A stretch of DNA of 64,000 nt from Silvibacterium bohemicum (lineage in GTDB: Bacteria > Acidobacteriota > Terriglobia > Terriglobales > Acidobacteriaceae). Shown piece by piece: positions 43,554-64,000 of this stretch. The translations under genes were made by a program, and so were the position numbers. Each line of letters begins with the position of its first letter. The stretch's first letter is position 1. The stretch is taken from assembly GCF_001006305.1 (NCBI RefSeq), contig NZ_LBHJ01000003.1:919709-983708 (forward strand), read 5' to 3'. The notes under the pieces are model-generated. The model was not told the origin of the DNA. It saw nothing but the letters and a program-made list of their open reading frames with translations, and searched no databases.

Positions 43554-46055
43554 GTGAGCAGGATCGGGATCGGGAAAAACGGCAGGGTGTCTGTTGCGAA
43601 TTTAACTACGGCTGTGCTGCTCTCTGGCTTCGCTATGACCGCGCTCTGCGCTCGGTCATCTGGTGAAGAGCAGGCTTTGCAAATCAAGGTAAATCCGGCA
43701 GACGGCAGGTACACCATTGCCATGCCCGGCTCCGAATCGTCTGCTTTGCGTGCCGGGATCGGAGTCGAAGTAGATGGCCGCTGGCTCCGTGCATCCGATT
43801 ACCCGCGGCATGAATTATCGCAGTCGCAGGGTCAGGGATATCTTGGGCAATTAACAGACTGGCAGGTGACTTACTCCGGAGTAAGTGGAGCGCCAGACCT
43901 GGTCTATCATCTCCGCGCCTATTCTGGAGAGCCCTTCGGCGATATCCAGGTGACGGTTCGCAATACGACCGGGAAGCTCGTTCACATCGAAGGCATTCGT
44001 TCCGTGGATGCCAGCGAAGGAGCGGTCATCGATCTGGGAGGACCGGCCGCCGAGGATCGCGTGCTCTCCGATAGCTGGAGCGAAGACCGCCCCGGCATGA
44101 CCATCCACAATCTGGCCGATACCAAGCAGCAGATGCATCGCGCGGTTGGCAGCCAATTGATCTATAACCTCGCCAGCCATGAGAGCTTGTTTCTTGGCGC
44201 GCTCTCCTCGGACCAGTTCCTCACCGTTCTGCGGCTCCGCCTCGCAGACAAGTCAGCTACCGAACCTCATCTGGCTTCCTATGAAGTCGATTCGACTGGA
44301 ACTACTGAGTTGGAGATCGAGAATTCGCTTGAGCATTCTCCTGCCGAGGATCGTATACCGCTAAGTCTGCCCGTGAATCCCGGCGCTGAACTCTCTTCCG
44401 AACGCGTGCTCTTCAGTCTGTCGAAGGATTATCACCATCAGCTTGATACCTATGGTTCGCTCATCAAGCAGATCCACCATGCGAAGACTTCAGCACCGCC
44501 GTTGATGGGTTGGTGGAGCTGGACGGCATACTACTTTGGCTTGAACGATGGAGCGGCCTTTACGAACGCCAAGTGGGAGGCGGAGCATCTCAAATCGCTC
44601 GGCTATAACATCTTCCACATTGATGAAGGCTATCAGTACGCGCGTGGAGAATACAGTACGCCGAATGCGACTCTCTTTCCCGATGGTCTCGCCCCGGTGT
44701 ACTACAAGGTGCAAGGTCTCGGCCTCGTCCCCGGGATATGGACAGCTCCTTTTGAAGTTTCCGAGCGCTCCTGGGTGTATCAGAATCGCCCCGACTGGTT
44801 GGTAAAGAATGCGTCAGGCAAGCCGATCCATGCAGGCACGGTCGAGCACCGCAAAGATCAGCTCTACGTATTGGACAACACGAACCCCGGCGCCCAGGAT
44901 TACCTGCGCAAAACCTACTCCACGCTCGTAAATCTCTGGGGCATCCGCTACATCAAGATGGACTTCATGGATGACAGCGCGATCGAAGGCTACTACTACA
45001 AGCCGAATACAACGGCTCTGGAGGCGCAGCGCATCGGGCTGAAGACGATTCGCGACACCGTCGGCGACGGCGTCCTTCTCGACAAGGATGGCAGCCCCAT
45101 GTTGAATCCGGTGGGATTGGTAGACTACGGACGCATCTCGCAAGATACCGGTCATACCTTCAGCGCCAGCAAGGAAGCAGCAACCGGAATAGCGGCTCGC
45201 TACTATATGAATAGGAATTATTTTGTGGCCGATCCGGATGCTTTTACCGTGTCGACGCAGACCATCAAAGACCAATCCTGGCACGAAAGTAAAAAGCCCG
45301 CGACCCTCGACGAAGCCAGCGTTTCCATTTCGCTCGCCGCCGTCTCAGGAGGGATGTTCGAGATAGGCGATGACCTCCCATCGTTAACGAAAGACCCCGA
45401 GCGTCTCGCACTGATCGAAAACCCAGAGCTGATCAACATGATTCGACTCGGCAAGGCATCGTTGCCACTGGACCTCATGACCTATTCGGCCGAAGACGGG
45501 CAGCCGAGCGTCTTCTTTCTGAAAGAGGATCGGCGGCAAAGCATTCTGACCGTCTTCAACTGGAGCGAGAAGTCGCGCGATCATTCGATCGATCTCGCCG
45601 CTGCGGGACTGCCTTCAGGCGGACACTATGAAGTCACCGATGCTCTCGATGCGAAAGATATCCTGGCATTGAATGGCGGCACGCTCGCATTGCAACAGCC
45701 GGCTCACTCGGTGCGCCTGATCAAGATTGTCGATACACAAATTCCGGCAACTCCTCCGAGTGTGACGATGGATCATCCTTCGGAGGGTAAGGCTGGAGAT
45801 TCGCTGGTCTTCTCCGCACAAGGCAAGGGAGACGATCCCGTGGTCACCTATCGTTGGGATTTCGGAGACGGCGTGACCTCGGAGGGGAGGGAAGTGAATC
45901 ATGCCTATACCGAACCGGGAGAATATAGCGTACATCTGACGGCCACGGGGCTCGACGGGCTGAGCTCGCAAGATCATTTCGAGCTGCGCGTCACCGGCCA
46001 CATACCGACCACCTTCGATCCGGCAAACATCAAGCGCTATCAGCCTGCCAACTAG
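43554..46055 (+). CDS. Secreted GH-D-like glycosidase with C-terminal PKD domain
   Basis: An 833-residue exported enzyme. The leader NLTTAVLLSGFAMTALCA is a signal peptide. After a ~300-residue beta-sandwich comes a melibiase-like barrel: PPLMGWWSWTAYYFGLNDGA, YNIFHIDEGYQYARGEY, VPGIWTAPFEVSERSW and IRYIKMDFMDDSAIEGYY, where D470 fits the nucleophile strand. VDYGRISQDTGHTF (D531) is a candidate acid/base. The C-terminal ~85 residues form a PKD domain (VTYRWDFGDGVTSEGREV, HAYTEPGEYSVHLTATG). Clan GH-D is clear, but the motifs depart from GH27 and classical GH36, so the substrate (alpha-Gal, alpha-GalNAc or beta-L-arabinopyranose) is open. GTG 43554 follows GGAGG (43544-43548) by 5 nt. It is co-transcribed with the receptor, and a hairpin ends the operon. 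Confidence 0.83.
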   Translation: MSRIGIGKNGRVSVANLTTAVLLSGFAMTALCARSSGEEQALQIKVNPADGRYTIAMPGSESSALRAGIGVEVDGRWLRASDYPRHELSQSQGQGYLGQLTDWQVTYSGVSGAPDLVYHLRAYSGEPFGDIQVTVRNTTGKLVHIEGIRSVDASEGAVIDLGGPAAEDRVLSDSWSEDRPGMTIHNLADTKQQMHRAVGSQLIYNLASHESLFLGALSSDQFLTVLRLRLADKSATEPHLASYEVDSTGTTELEIENSLEHSPAEDRIPLSLPVNPGAELSSERVLFSLSKDYHHQLDTYGSLIKQIHHAKTSAPPLMGWWSWTAYYFGLNDGAAFTNAKWEAEHLKSLGYNIFHIDEGYQYARGEYSTPNATLFPDGLAPVYYKVQGLGLVPGIWTAPFEVSERSWVYQNRPDWLVKNASGKPIHAGTVEHRKDQLYVLDNTNPGAQDYLRKTYSTLVNLWGIRYIKMDFMDDSAIEGYYYKPNTTALEAQRIGLKTIRDTVGDGVLLDKDGSPMLNPVGLVDYGRISQDTGHTFSASKEAATGIAARYYMNRNYFVADPDAFTVSTQTIKDQSWHESKKPATLDEASVSISLAAVSGGMFEIGDDLPSLTKDPERLALIENPELINMIRLGKASLPLDLMTYSAEDGQPSVFFLKEDRRQSILTVFNWSEKSRDHSIDLAAAGLPSGGHYEVTDALDAKDILALNGGTLALQQPAHSVRLIKIVDTQIPATPPSVTMDHPSEGKAGDSLVFSAQGKGDDPVVTYRWDFGDGVTSEGREVNHAYTEPGEYSVHLTATGLDGLSSQDHFELRVTGHIPTTFDPANIKRYQPAN

Positions 46056-51685: not shown

Positions 51686-51688
51686 TGG

Positions 51689-51777
51689 CGGAGAGGGAGG
51701 GATTCGAACCCCCGGTAGCCTTTCGACTACGTCTGATTTCGAGTCAGGTGCATTCAACCGGGCTCTGCCACCTCTCC
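51689..51777 (-). tRNA. tRNA-Ser (anticodon CGA)
   Basis: On the minus strand the acceptor GGAGAGG (complement of 51771-51777) pairs with CCTCTCC (complement of 51690-51696). The anticodon loop CTCGAAA within TGACTCGAAATCA gives anticodon CGA, which reads UCG. A long variable arm (ACGTAGTCGAAAGGCTACC) marks a class II tRNA. The T-loop GGTTCGAATCC is intact, and the discriminator G is followed by an encoded CCA (complement of 51686-51688). Confidence 0.95.
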
Positions 51778-58319: not shown

Positions 58320-58410
58320 ACGTCATTCTGCGCGGAGCGAAGAATCTCAGCGAAGCTTGGTCCAGCTACATCGCCGAGATTTTTCCTCCCGATGGCCGCC
58401 AGAATGACGT
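58320..58410. repeat. REP-like palindromic repeat, family A
   Basis: ACGTCATTCTG (58320-58330) pairs with CAGAATGACGT (58400-58410), and inside, AATCTCAGCG pairs with CGCCGAGATT with one mismatch. A second copy lies at 62711-62795 with the same GCGAAGAATCTCAGCGA core. It lies 6 bp after the GH27 stop, so it may also act as a terminator or mRNA-stabilising structure. Confidence 0.75.
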
Positions 58411-58430
58411 ACTAAAACGAAAACCAGGTC

Positions 58431-58456
58431 CCCACATCTCGATTTTGAGATGTGGG
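58431..58456. repeat. REP-like hairpin, family B
   Basis: CCCACATCTC (58431-58440) and GAGATGTGGG (58447-58456) form a perfect 10-bp stem with loop GATTTT. A related hairpin with the complementary loop (AAAATC) lies at 62651-62686, i.e. in inverted orientation. Confidence 0.7.
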
Positions 58457-60006: not shown

Positions 60007-62568
60007 GTGGAATTTATGCGGCTCTTGTGCCGTTATATACCTGCAGACATACCCTATATGACCGCGACTAAGCTGGCTTCCCGACCGACCGACGCTCAAT
60101 CTTTGGCTCAACGTGAACAGATATTTGAAGCTTTTCGGCGCTGGGGCTATCTTCAGGCTCAGCTCGATCCGCTGGAGCAGTATCTCTCTCCGGAGCGCAT
60201 CCCGGAGCTGAACCTTTCCGGTCCGGATGCGGACGAGGCGCGCGGCTATTATTGCTCGACAGTCGGCGCGGAGTTCATGCACATTCCCTCGGCCGAGCGC
60301 CGGAAGTGGATCGCCGAGCGGCTGGAGACCAATCCTCTGGCGGCGGACGAAGCCGTCCAGCACCGCATTCTGGAGCTGCTCACCCGCGCCGACATCTTCG
60401 AGCAGGTGATTCAATCACGCTATCTCGGAACCAAGCGCTTTTCGCTTGAAGGCGTGACCGCGCTGATCCCATTTCTCGACGAGCTGCTGCATCGCGCCGC
60501 CGAACACGGCGTGCAGAAGTCGGTGATGGCCATGAGCCATCGCGGACGCCTGAGCGTAATGGTCAACACCTTCGGCAAATCGGCTGCTGACATCTTCTCC
60601 AAGTTTGAAGACGTCGACCCGCGCAGCATCCTGGGCGGCGGCGACGTGAAGTATCACGTCGGTGCCACGGGAACATTTCTGACCCGCAACGGTGAATCGA
60701 TCTCGCTGCACCTCGTATCGAACCCCAGCCATCTCGAGGCGGTCGATCCGGTGGTAGTGGGTCGTGCGCGCGCTAAGCAGACTCGTTATGGAGCCGACGG
60801 TGTCAACCGCGTGCTGCCCGTCATCATCCACGGCGACGCGGCCTTCGCTGGCCAGGGCATCTGGGCCGAGACCATGAACCTCGCCTCCATCGACGGCTTC
60901 TCCGTCGGCGGCACTATCCAGATCATCGTCAACAACCTGATCGGCTTCACCGCCGAGCCGGACGAGTCGAACTCCACACGCTTTGCCTCCGATCTCGCCA
61001 AGCGCCTGCCGGTGCCCATCTTCCACGTGAACGCCGAAGATGCGGAGGCGGTGATTCGCATCGCCGCGCTGGCTGCCGAGTACCGGCATACCTTCCACAG
61101 CGACGTGGTGGTCGATCTGATCGGTTATCGCCGTCACGGCCACTCCGAGGTCGACGACCCCACCATCACCCAGCCGCTGCGCTACAACCGCATCAAGAAA
61201 CACGCTCCGCTGTACGAGATCTACGCCAAGCAGACCGGCGCCGACATCTCCGGCCGCGTAAAAGAGCTGCAGGCGGAGTTTACCGACGCCCAGAAGCGCG
61301 CGACCACCATGCAGAAGATCCCCACGCTCGCGCAGCTTCCCGAGTATTGGTCGCCCTACAAAGGTGGTCCGCACAAGGCCGAGTATGAAGTCGAGACTGG
61401 TCTGGACCGTGAGACGGTTGCCACGCTCTCGCAGGGCCTGAGCTCCTATCCGGAGAGCTTCCACGTTCATCCCAAGATCAAAAAACTGTTGGAACAGCGC
61501 GCCGAGATGGGTCGCGGAGATCGCCCCTTCGATTACGGCATGGCCGAGGCGCTGGCCTTCGGATCGCTGGTGAAGGCCGGGGTTCCGGTGCGCCTCAGCG
61601 GGCAGGATTCGCAGCGCGGCACCTTCAATCAGCGCCACTCCGTGCTCATCGACATCGAGAACGAGCAGCCCTATATTCCTCTCAACCATCTGGCCAAGGA
61701 ACAGGCGCCCTTCGATGTTTACAACTCCATCCTTTCGGAAGCCGGCGTGCTCGGCTTCGAGTATGGATACAGTCGCGACTATCCAGAGACGCTGGTGCTG
61801 TGGGAGGCGCAGTTCGGCGACTTCGCCAACGGCGGCCAGATCGTCATCGATCAATTCATCTCCGCGGGCGAAGACAAGTGGGGGCTGCTGAGCGGCCTCA
61901 CGCTGCTGCTGCCGCACGGCTACGAAGGCCAGGGGCCGGAGCACTCCAGCGCACGCATCGAGCGTTACCTGCAGCTCGCGGCGCATGACAACATCCAGAT
62001 CTGCCAGCCCTCGACGGCCGCGCAGTACTTCCATCTGCTGCGGCGGCAGGCGCTGCGCAAGTGGCGCAAGCCCCTGATCGTCTTCACGCCCAAGAGCATG
62101 CTGCGCCATCCCGATGCGATTTCACCCATCGCAGACTTCAGCCGCCCGAACTTCCAGAACGTGATTCCGGAGACCGAAATTCAGAACGCCAAGCGCCTGC
62201 TGCTGTGCACCGGAAAGATCGGCCACGAGCTGCGCGTCGAGCGCCAGAAGCGCAAGGACACCACCACCGGCATCATCTTCCTCGACCAGCTCTATCCATG
62301 GCCCGAGGCCGAGCTGACCGCCGCCATCGAGGCGCATCCCAACGCGCACGAAGTGGTCTGGGTGCAGGAAGAGCCGGTGAACATGGGCGCGCAGTGGTAC
62401 GTGATGCCCCGGCTCCGCCGCGTGGCCCGCGACCGCCAGGTCCTCAGCGTCAAGCGCTCCGAGGCAGCCAGCCCAGCAACCGGCTCAGCCAAGGCTCATG
62501 ATCTCGAACAGAAGACACTGATCGAGCTAGCGCTCAGCAGCGGTCTGCAGGACAAGGTCGCGAAGTAG
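60007..62568 (+). CDS. sucA: 2-oxoglutarate dehydrogenase E1 component (N-terminally short)
   Basis: Thiamine-diphosphate-dependent decarboxylase of the TCA-cycle 2-oxoglutarate dehydrogenase complex. Family signatures are intact: AEFMHIPSAERRKWI, RFSLEGVTALIPFLDEL, MSHRGRLSVMVNTFGK, GGGDVKYHVGATG, SNPSHLEAVDPVVVG, IIHGDAAFAGQGIWAE, NNLIGFTAEPDES, IGYRRHGHSEVDD, RLSGQDSQRGTFNQRH, EAQFGDFANGGQIVID and GYEGQGPEHSSARIERYL. The protein (~838-853 aa) starts at FRRWGYLQAQLDPL, equivalent to about residue 95 of the 933-residue E. coli SucA, so the N-terminal E2-binding region is missing. GTG 60007, ATG 60016 and ATG 60058 are all possible; none has a good ribosome site. No E2 (sucB) or E3 gene is adjacent. 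It ends exactly at an inverted repeat. Confidence 0.95.
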   Translation: MEFMRLLCRYIPADIPYMTATKLASRPTDAQSLAQREQIFEAFRRWGYLQAQLDPLEQYLSPERIPELNLSGPDADEARGYYCSTVGAEFMHIPSAERRKWIAERLETNPLAADEAVQHRILELLTRADIFEQVIQSRYLGTKRFSLEGVTALIPFLDELLHRAAEHGVQKSVMAMSHRGRLSVMVNTFGKSAADIFSKFEDVDPRSILGGGDVKYHVGATGTFLTRNGESISLHLVSNPSHLEAVDPVVVGRARAKQTRYGADGVNRVLPVIIHGDAAFAGQGIWAETMNLASIDGFSVGGTIQIIVNNLIGFTAEPDESNSTRFASDLAKRLPVPIFHVNAEDAEAVIRIAALAAEYRHTFHSDVVVDLIGYRRHGHSEVDDPTITQPLRYNRIKKHAPLYEIYAKQTGADISGRVKELQAEFTDAQKRATTMQKIPTLAQLPEYWSPYKGGPHKAEYEVETGLDRETVATLSQGLSSYPESFHVHPKIKKLLEQRAEMGRGDRPFDYGMAEALAFGSLVKAGVPVRLSGQDSQRGTFNQRHSVLIDIENEQPYIPLNHLAKEQAPFDVYNSILSEAGVLGFEYGYSRDYPETLVLWEAQFGDFANGGQIVIDQFISAGEDKWGLLSGLTLLLPHGYEGQGPEHSSARIERYLQLAAHDNIQICQPSTAAQYFHLLRRQALRKWRKPLIVFTPKSMLRHPDAISPIADFSRPNFQNVIPETEIQNAKRLLLCTGKIGHELRVERQKRKDTTTGIIFLDQLYPWPEAELTAAIEAHPNAHEVVWVQEEPVNMGAQWYVMPRLRRVARDRQVLSVKRSEAASPATGSAKAHDLEQKTLIELALSSGLQDKVAK

Positions 62569-62650
62569 GGACTGGCCGTCCAGGCATTGGCGGCTACGCC
62601 GCATTCTCCTGCTTTCCATGATCCTCGTCGCATTCGGGTGGATTTCCTGC

Positions 62651-62686
62651 GGTGCTCTACATCTCAAAATCGAGACGTGGAGCACC
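62651..62686. repeat. REP-like hairpin, family B (inverted copy)
   Basis: GGTGCTCTACATCTC and GAGACGTGGAGCACC form a 15-position stem (one G-T and one mismatch) with an AAAATC loop. The ACATCTC/GAGA core is that of 58431-58456, with the loop complementary, so the copy is inverted. Confidence 0.65.
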
Positions 62687-62710
62687 CGCTTCCCTGAGCA
62701 AAAAAGAAGG

Positions 62711-62795
62711 GTCATTCTGAGCGCAGCGAAGAATCTCAGCGATACTGGTCGCGCACATCCCTGAGATTATTCCTCCCGTTGGTCGTCAAAATGAC
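62711..62795. repeat. REP-like palindromic repeat, family A (second copy)
   Basis: GTCATTCTG (62711-62719) pairs with CAAAATGAC (62787-62795), and AATCTCAG (62732-62739) with CTGAGATT (62761-62768). The left arm and core match the copy at 58320 in the same orientation. Confidence 0.7.
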
Positions 62796-62852
62796 GTCCT
62801 GTGGAGATGGTACGGAAGAGTCGAAGCGCTTAGAGCGCCTGGACGGCCAGTC

Positions 62853-64000
62853 CTACTTGCTGTACTCATCCCGCAACCGTGTCTGGCGTGACACCATCGG
62901 GATCGCGTGGCCCTCGATGTAGACCTGCTTCACATCCGTCCGCACATCCAGAGGGTCGCCGTTCGCGATGACCACGTTCGCGAGCTTGCCTGCGTCGAGC
63001 GAGCCCAGTTTGTCGGCCACGCCCCACATCTCGGCGGGGTTCAGCGTGATCGCCTTCAGTGCCTCGTCATAAGGAAGTCCATACGCAACGGCATAGCCCG
63101 CAGCATAAGGCAGGTTGCGCTCGAAGCCTCCAGGGTTTCCGCTGCTTCCTCCGGCGGAGGAGAACGCGATCTTCACGCCGCGCTTGGAAAGCTCCGCAGG
63201 CAGGGTAAACACCGAATCGTAGCGCTCGTTGGCGGCAGGGAAGTCGTAGATCGGTCCCACGATCACCGGCACTTTGTACGCGGCGATCTTGTCCAGGATC
63301 TCCTGGCTGTGAGTCACATGGTTGAGGATCACCTTCAGGTGAAACTCCTGCGCGATCTGCATGTCGACTTCGATCTCATAGCCTTCGTAGGCGGCCAGCA
63401 CCACTGGCTTTTCGCCTCTCAGATAAGGCAGCAGCGCCTCTGACTTCAAATCGATCTTCGGCTCGGTGGGAGCAGGCTCCTTCTTGTCGCCCTTCTGCCA
63501 CTTCGCCAGCTTCGTCTGGTACTCGGCCTTGGCTGCGGCGTAAGCCTGCGCGTCGATGAAGGTCTGGCGCAGCTGTGATGCCAGGCCCATCCGGGTGCTG
63601 GGAAACTTGACGCCTCCATTGCCGCGCCGCCGCTGCTCTCCGGAGAAGTTCATGGGCAGCGCCACATCCTTACCCAGGATCATCTGGTCGCGATCGCGCC
63701 CGGCAAGCTGGATAAAGATGTCCTGCCCGGGAAGGGAATCGTCCGAGGCCGGCGCGACGATGGCGTTGGTGATGCCGTTGAGCCGGGTGATGGGAATGTG
63801 CTCCGTCTCCGCGTGAAAGGCATCGTAGACGTGCATGTTGGGAAAGATTTCGTCGCTGGTTTCGACCAGGTCGTTGCTGGCGTCGTCGGCCTCGATCTCG
63901 CTCAGCCCGAGATTCGTCTCGGAATCGATCAGCCCAGGATAGACAGTCATCCCCTTGGCATCGACAATCTGCGCTCCATCGGGGATCTTGACGGAGTCAG
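62853..64000 (-). CDS. Amidohydrolase-family protein (5' end outside window, metal motif altered)
   Basis: The frame is open from the right edge to the stop at 62853, giving ~381 residues of the C-terminal part. The first visible segment DSVKIPDGAQIVDAKG followed by MTVYPGLIDSETNLGLSE corresponds to the amidohydrolase beta-strand that normally reads 'P-G-L-I-D-x-H-x-H'; here the H-x-H is replaced by S-E-T-N. Further on are VPVIVGPIYDFPA, IAFSSAGGSSGNPGGFERNL, GLPYDEALKAITLNPAEMWG and LGSLDAGKLANVVIANGDP, the usual end of imidazolonepropionase-like members. So the fold is intact but a normal binuclear centre is unlikely. The region between residues ~130 and 160 (KAEYQTKLAKWQKGDKKE) is a Lys/Glu-rich insertion. 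It may be a non-catalytic paralogue paired with an intact copy upstream, outside the window. Confidence 0.85.
   Translation of the reverse strand, partial: DSVKIPDGAQIVDAKGMTVYPGLIDSETNLGLSEIEADDASNDLVETSDEIFPNMHVYDAFHAETEHIPITRLNGITNAIVAPASDDSLPGQDIFIQLAGRDRDQMILGKDVALPMNFSGEQRRRGNGGVKFPSTRMGLASQLRQTFIDAQAYAAAKAEYQTKLAKWQKGDKKEPAPTEPKIDLKSEALLPYLRGEKPVVLAAYEGYEIEVDMQIAQEFHLKVILNHVTHSQEILDKIAAYKVPVIVGPIYDFPAANERYDSVFTLPAELSKRGVKIAFSSAGGSSGNPGGFERNLPYAAGYAVAYGLPYDEALKAITLNPAEMWGVADKLGSLDAGKLANVVIANGDPLDVRTDVKQVYIEGHAIPMVSRQTRLRDEYSK

Follow-up and report, generated by a model that had tools for sequence, protein, structure and literature searches.

A mosaic of dispersed repeats between two convergent genes of Silvibacterium bohemicum, with units that abut stop codons

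Background

REP-like repeats tend to be regarded as scattered debris or else as passengers of RAYTs, and work on E. coli REPs near stops has reportedly been done by Liang et al. 2015. E. coli REPs lying 15 nt or less from a stop are reported to cause ribosome stalling and down-regulation of translation (PMC12306157), and the GTAG heads of REPs "often provide" a TAG stop (PMC3733652). Both stop-proximal REPs and GTAG heads supplying the TAG are already known. Among the titles and abstract openings listed in searches of the open-access literature, neither stop-abutting repeats of Acidobacteria nor the two-stem motif described here was recognised. The present report deals with a short region between two convergent genes, in which repeats of three types occur together and in which the outermost repeats are each in contact with a stop codon.

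Results

The window, i.e. the whole stretch of 64,000 nt that was analysed, corresponds to C12:919709-983708 in the 6.46-Mb genome of S. bohemicum (G000). The region under study covers 285 bp. It is preceded by a 2-oxoglutarate dehydrogenase E1 gene (60007..62568, plus strand; Pfam E1_dh, Transket_pyr and OxoGdeHyase_C) that ends with a TAG at 62566-62568, and is followed by an amidohydrolase gene (62853..63950, minus strand) that ends with a TAG at 62855-62853. The C-termini of the two products, KVAK* and RDEYTK* respectively, are conserved in G001, another genome of the genus. Immediately behind the E1 stop, at a distance of 0 nt, the plus strand carries a 17-nt core, GGAC-TG-GCC-GTCC-A-GGC (62569..62585), in which positions 1-4 pair with 10-13 (S1) and 7-9 with 15-17 (S2), and then a second hairpin, GCGGC-TAC-GCCGC (62590..62602, plus strand). 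An identical core occurs on the minus strand (62837..62853), where it overlaps the amidohydrolase TAG by one base, its own first and the codon's last (offset -1), and where the second hairpin is degenerate (62823..62836, minus strand). The covariance model described below matches unit 1 over 62569-62602 (L166:8850-8883; 47.7 bits) and unit 2 over 62823-62853 (L166:9104-9134; 25 bits, E 0.006).

The initial annotation had pointed to an intergenic element bounded by 17-bp inverted repeats that begin at two stop codons. The inverted repeat is real and not due to chance, since its two arms are perfect and 251 nt apart and 20 base shuffles of the window yielded none of this length with separate arms. 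The contact of the first arm with the E1 stop was also correctly seen. The second arm does share one base, G 62853, with the amidohydrolase TAG, although this G, which had been proposed as the first base of the codon, closes it on the minus strand; it is the first TAG base solely in the plus-strand reading. That this double contact was called odd was justified, and it is meaningful.

Both interior hairpins that had been noted exist. The first one, module B (62651..62686, no strand assigned), is a dispersed hairpin of the ACATCTCAAAA..GAGA type with a predicted fold of -22.6 kcal/mol (z -7.4), and as a family it is not anchored to stops. The second one, module C (62711..62796, plus strand), is an imperfect palindrome of ca. 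86 nt (GTCATTCTGAGCGCAGCGAAGAATCTCAG...) and a dispersed repeat as well, with ca. 40 homologous places in the genome among those scored and with pieces that also match other genera of the family. Another copy of module C, 83% identical, was observed in the window at 58322-58413 and is adjoined by a module B palindrome, CCCACATCTCGATTTTGAGATGTGGG, at 58433-58454; a repeat scan further detected a perfect 18-nt palindrome at 43869-43886. No association with a tRNA or tmRNA was found in the window, in which one tRNA-Ser is located far off (51686-51777), and 62400-63050 gave no match to known Rfam RNAs at E<=1.

When the G000 genome was searched with the 285 bp, the only full match was the region itself; the remaining matches were partial and fell mainly on its positions 143-228. 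The 17-mer is not unique in this genome, where it occurs in 44 exact copies and in 118 copies within 2 mismatches (4 for a reversed-pattern control), and with position 6 left free (GGACTNGCCGTCCAGGC) it has 76 copies (none for the reversed pattern). Since the whole is found once and the arms many times, the arms are repeat units in their own right: each heads a separate unit of ca. 34 nt that is oriented with its own upstream gene. Two further dispersed palindromes lie in the interior, so that the region as a whole is a REP/BIME-like mosaic and is neither a MITE nor an intrinsic terminator. The repetitive and REP-like character first attributed to the region is thus borne out, and the notion of a single intergenic element is half right.

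In the genus, copies with position 6 free number 93 in G001, 3 in G002 and 7 to 35 in G003-G008; of 32 genomes from outside the genus, 6 contain one or two. The covariance model yields, at E<=1, 132 matches in G000, 151 in G001, 90 in G007 and 16-43 in each of the other six genus genomes (43 in G005), counts which derive from ca. 150 scored candidates per genome, so that the values for G000 and G001 may be floors. A survey of the family (60 genomes, one per genus), run with stricter filters, found 13 genomes, including G000, with matches at E<=0.001; four other genera have 28, 23, 22 and 15 matches and eight more have 1-2. Among 11 loci inspected in other genera, five have the unit 0 or -1 from a stop, with one GTGC/GCAC stem and two CGC/GCG stems.

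The vast majority of the G000 copies with an exact core (69 of 76) lie outside called genes. Module B was found near a unit at L080, L081, L082 and L093, and module C at L074 and L081, among the G000 loci fetched; module B follows the unit by ca. 50-75 nt at L080, L082, L093 and in the window, this spacing not being fixed. Opposed units less than 500 nt apart occur at three places in these loci and span 285, 314 and 158-183 nt. The 314-nt case, L117 (C13:767167-767480), is a convergent gene pair in which both stops have a unit, at offsets of 0 and -7, and is, together with the pair in the window (0 and -1), one of two such pairs of G000. A tandem array of units with a period of 32-33 nt begins at a TAG at L071 (C4:275160-275339), and two-copy arrays were observed at L060, L073 and L099; these four loci suggest local expansion. 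By eye, the two Y1_Tnp genes of G000, L017 (C4:849185) and L018 (C12:134161), have flanking inverted repeats of their own (GGGTGCCCCATCC... and CAGGGGCCT..AGGCCCCTG) that are RAYT-like and unrelated to the unit.

The unit is dispersed through the genus, its presence being lineage-specific, and many of its copies are placed in sense orientation at ORF ends with a precision of single bases. In G000, 30 of the 76 copies have the upstream sense stop ending at -7 (3 copies), -1 (11), 0 (13) or +1 (3) from the unit. The other 46 are located behind another unit (17), behind module B (12), in called genes (3) or elsewhere (14), and in ten copies beyond the 30 an intervening partial or diverged unit was seen by eye to touch the stop. 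In G001, which has 93 copies in total, 10 of the 38 that were fetched are at -1, 0 or +1. On the far side of the unit, called convergent stops are at least 33 nt away in G000 and 53 nt in G001; a looser count based on longest ORFs places two convergent stops inside the unit span (-24 and -14) and none at -1 to +1.

The same placement is obtained when gene ends are taken as the starting point, these being defined, as around the 76 copies above, by our own hexamer caller, trained on 800 kb of G000, and not by a published gene finder. In 800 kb of G000 that include the window (601 called gene ends), the two-stem motif is absent from offsets 10-79 and is found eight times at -7, -1, 0 or +1; seven of the eight have a GGACT core, and the remaining one, which lacks the T, is probably a chance match. 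Over 1,067 gene ends fetched in the genus, a set enriched for copy-bearing loci and not for offset, the motif is found 29 times at -1, 37 times at 0, nine times at +1 and seven times at -7, with 0 to 5 occurrences at each other offset from -40 to +42; one group in this set, "others", mixes in loci of G000, G001, G002 and G008, and some ends are counted twice. In G002, where 318 gene ends in 400 kb carry only a handful of units, no stop-anchored 7- or 9-mer was seen at least three times. A test of stop-anchoring gave no peak at offset 0 for module B and two matches only for module C.

At the 30 stop-abutting sites of G000 the stop is TAG in 21 cases, TGA in six and TAA in three, compared with 199, 233 and 169, respectively, for all 601 genes, an excess of TAG that is partly explained by the -1 and -7 registers. 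In the -7 class (L108, L115 and L117 in G000; L124:9708 and L129:222 in G001), the stop codon forms the loop of the unit, GGAC-TAG-CC or GGAC-TGA-CC, so that the 5' half of S1 is coding. Relative to the gene, units start in each of the three frames, which means no single conserved peptide, and programmed read-through of the stop is therefore not favoured. Of 29 copies that are neither at a stop nor behind another unit, two display a stop triplet at the three registers, the expected fraction at random non-coding positions being 0.10. As these copies show no excess of stop triplets, insertion into the stop trinucleotide as a DNA target is unsupported; a simple trinucleotide target appears unlikely and the link is with real ORF ends.

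In silico analyses further indicate that pairing in the unit is maintained as its sequence changes. The core has the layout N4-T-N-XYZ-N'4-R-Z'Y'X' and is followed by a short GC hairpin, the whole unit measuring ca. 34 nt; two stems, S1 and S2, are interlocked within 17 nt and both covary. The covariance model was built from 38 sequences, with S1 and the second hairpin included and S2 left out, and its alignment contains four variants that had been chosen by eye from the stop-abutting ends of orthologs. Over 108 distinct hits (model hits listed to about E 0.05, one partial hit and same-place repeats having been removed by hand), S1 is 98% paired and takes the form of seven Watson-Crick helices (GGAC/GTCC, ACGC/GCGT, AGAT/ATCT, GTGC/GCAC, GCAC/GTGC, GCGC/GCGC and GAAC/GTTC). 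S2, on which the model places no constraint, shows 95% pairing in these hits, compared with 6, 34 and 44% in slid controls. The loop is not GCC in 14 hits, two of which belong to the four variants picked by eye, and S2 is kept in eight of the 14 (mean 3.0 and maximum 7 in 10,000 permutations). Single units are predicted to fold hardly better than shuffles (z +0.1 to -1.7), so that a strong folding energy fails as a proof of structure. A single nucleotide seems a short bridge across a 4-bp stem if both stems are to form at once as a pseudoknot.

Orthologs of the 30 stop sites were sought in G001, G002 and G008, giving 66 ortholog 3' ends that cover 29 of the sites. The ortholog protein stops at the same residue in 46 of these, no more than 3 residues away in 12, and at a greater distance in eight. 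GGACTNGCC is present within 60 nt of the ortholog stop in four of the 66, about nine more have, by eye, a diverged, overlapping or CTGC-type unit, and the rest are devoid of a unit. The E1 gene is an example, its G001 ortholog ending with an identical KVAK-TAG without the 17-mer. This comparison of relatives indicates that the stop is usually the gene's own and ancestral, with the unit standing behind it, and that the unit is not essential at most of these sites. An instance in which the unit is shared is the 3' end of rpsJ, where GGAC-TGGCC-GTCC in G000 corresponds to ACGC-TAGCC-GCGT in G002, both directly behind the stop. The two units differ on both sides of three of the four S1 pairs, and likewise of one pair in the second hairpin; in the G002 unit, S2 needs a spacer of two.

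At this same rpsJ end (L238-L257), a unit was observed in G000, in G002 and, by eye, in G057 (L321), GCTAAGAGCCGG-type repeats in G007 and AGCTTCTAGC-type arrays in G001 and G016, so that the site looks like a general landing spot for repeats. G001 also has a second repeat, CTGC-TGCGC-GCAG-G-GCG, that adopts the layout of the core and starts at stops. At L122-L133 this repeat (CTGCTNCGCGCAGGGCG) begins precisely at stops and often has a GGACT unit next to it downstream, and many of its copies are trailed by a CCGCTCCC..TGGTCGCG tail.

Discussion

On balance we favour, by a little, an interpretation in which the 285 bp is a mosaic whose two independent units show a preference for the stops of their upstream genes, probably act as 3' boundaries in the mRNA and have spread by some route. 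A ribosome at a stop codon covers about the first dozen nt downstream. The terminating ribosome would then hold the first ca. 12 nt of the unit open and, as a consequence of this coverage, the core would fold only after release; the second hairpin could form at once, with the ribosome still at the stop. Once free, the core might adopt a tight pseudoknot or else two mutually exclusive hairpins, each with a 5-nt loop, and in this form mark and protect the end of the message, or slow termination and recycling. By analogy with the stop-proximal REPs of E. coli, the simplest role would be that of a 3' boundary, either protecting the message or setting the pace of termination. Copies would spread from gene to gene and persist best when exactly behind a stop. 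Weighing against this interpretation are the 46 of 76 copies away from stops, the unremarkable folding energies, the scarcity of units in G002 and the many orthologs that do without them.

Selfish spread would be a rival explanation of the same data, somewhat doubtful in our opinion, in which the unit is a single-stranded DNA palindrome moved by a transposase acting in trans, with insertion directed to ORF ends or tolerated only there and with no function in the mRNA; the stems would be needed for mobilisation or would be maintained by template-switch correction of quasi-palindromes. The roughly ninefold range of copies across the genus (from 16 to 151 matches to the model, the assemblies being unequally complete), the absence of the unit from most orthologous sites and the existence of tandem and partial copies all speak for such a scenario. 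It is less easily reconciled with the lack of a stop-triplet preference away from ORF ends, and with the rpsJ layout having been kept in G000 and G002 despite double-sided changes. Nor does a candidate transposase accompany the unit: none of the 12 Y1_Tnp loci, which come from seven of the nine genus genomes, carries it, and G005 and G007, with their 43 and 90 matches, show no Y1_Tnp in assemblies that are both incomplete. Mobilisation as a RAYT-dependent REP was rejected on the grounds that no unit lies near the two Y1_Tnp genes of G000 and that the genus-wide check was negative.

Transcription termination, the other function initially put forward (as a compound bidirectional terminator), is improbable. 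A hairpin without a U-tract, or one linked to Rho, and doubled between convergent genes, would fit the window, where the genes converge and each unit is read out of its own gene; moreover, 30 of the 69 copies outside called genes lie between convergent genes, the figure being 230 of 600 for gene ends in the 800 kb. However, 26 of the 69 lie between genes that run in the same direction, the copy at rpsJ in the S10 operon being one of them. The intrinsic form is rejected, as no GC-rich stem followed by a T-run occurs in 62400-63050 and an intrinsic-terminator-like site is found within 200 nt at five of the 30 stop-abutting sites (60 of 600 G000 gene ends in the 800 kb; 6 of 200 shuffles). At three of these five (sites 12, 15 and 29), a conventional-looking terminator persists beyond the unit, and the orthologs reveal no clear trend towards replacement of one by the other (terminator-like sites at 5/30 ends in G000, 9/26 in G001, 8/19 in G002 and 3/21 in G008). 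As for the miniature mobile element also envisaged, perfect 17-bp inverted repeats around 251 nt are what a MITE would display as termini, and the opposed pair of L117, at two stops, has a similar span. This reading is nevertheless refuted for G000 and retains hardly any probability: no second copy of the whole element exists, most arms are partnerless, with opposed units at the three places mentioned above, there is no transposase inside and, by eye, no direct repeat indicative of a target-site duplication is seen beside either arm.

The preferred interpretation, a 3'-boundary element of the mRNA, can be carried further, to a view that we hold as tentative. The unit may be a dispersed RNA element that has its position at the stop codon as its defining feature, acts on the terminating ribosome and is handed on as a ready-made 3' end; the sequence of its stems would drift by lineage as its geometry stays, and several families, including the CTGC..GCAG repeat of G001, would represent one shape recognised by the machinery. 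In that event the 17-nt core is conceivably a minimal pseudoknot, or a bistable switch made of two overlapping and covarying stems. Whichever applies, this family of repeats is linked to stop codons with single-nucleotide precision and keeps its pairing as its letters change. It offers a testable case of translation termination selecting or guiding the spread of small repeats, as well as a compact 3'-end signal to test.

Relation to described repeats

By the broad definition of REP-like sequences (20-40 nt, palindromic, with many extragenic copies), the 34-nt unit belongs among them. Like the stop-proximal REPs of E. coli (PMC12306157), it is a dispersed palindromic repeat located just behind stops, but it abuts the stop at -1, 0 or +1 nt and has a 4-bp stem with a 5-nt loop, an interlocked second stem, a variable stem sequence and no GTAG head. 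It shares with the GTAG REPs and RAYT REPtrons (PMC3733652) a short length, a high copy number, an extragenic location and frequent proximity to ORF ends. Their stems of 5-13 bp (PMC3733652) compare with 4 bp in S1, no unpaired GTAG was found at the end of the unit, where the preceding bases vary (TAG, TGA, TAA, GGCA, GGCG, ...), and the stop at the unit, whether TAG, TGA or TAA, is usually that of the gene. The CGTC REPs resemble it in having no associated transposase in the survey of PMC3733652, but they possess 8-9 bp stems and a terminal CGTC, whereas CGTC is found only inside the core of the unit. Mycobacterial interspersed repetitive units (MIRU; PMC12548453) are likewise short repeats tied to a translation signal, which in their case is the start codon, with an ORF coupled at -4, and here is the stop, in all three frames.

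Finally, the 285-bp region recalls BIMEs in that repeats are combined in opposite orientations and that the association of the unit with module B or C recurs elsewhere; it differs from them in mixing three repeat families and in having outer units that are each fixed to a stop codon. Taken as a whole, what sets the unit apart from known REPs is its exact abutment on a stop native to the gene, its interlocked stems and the drift of their sequence.
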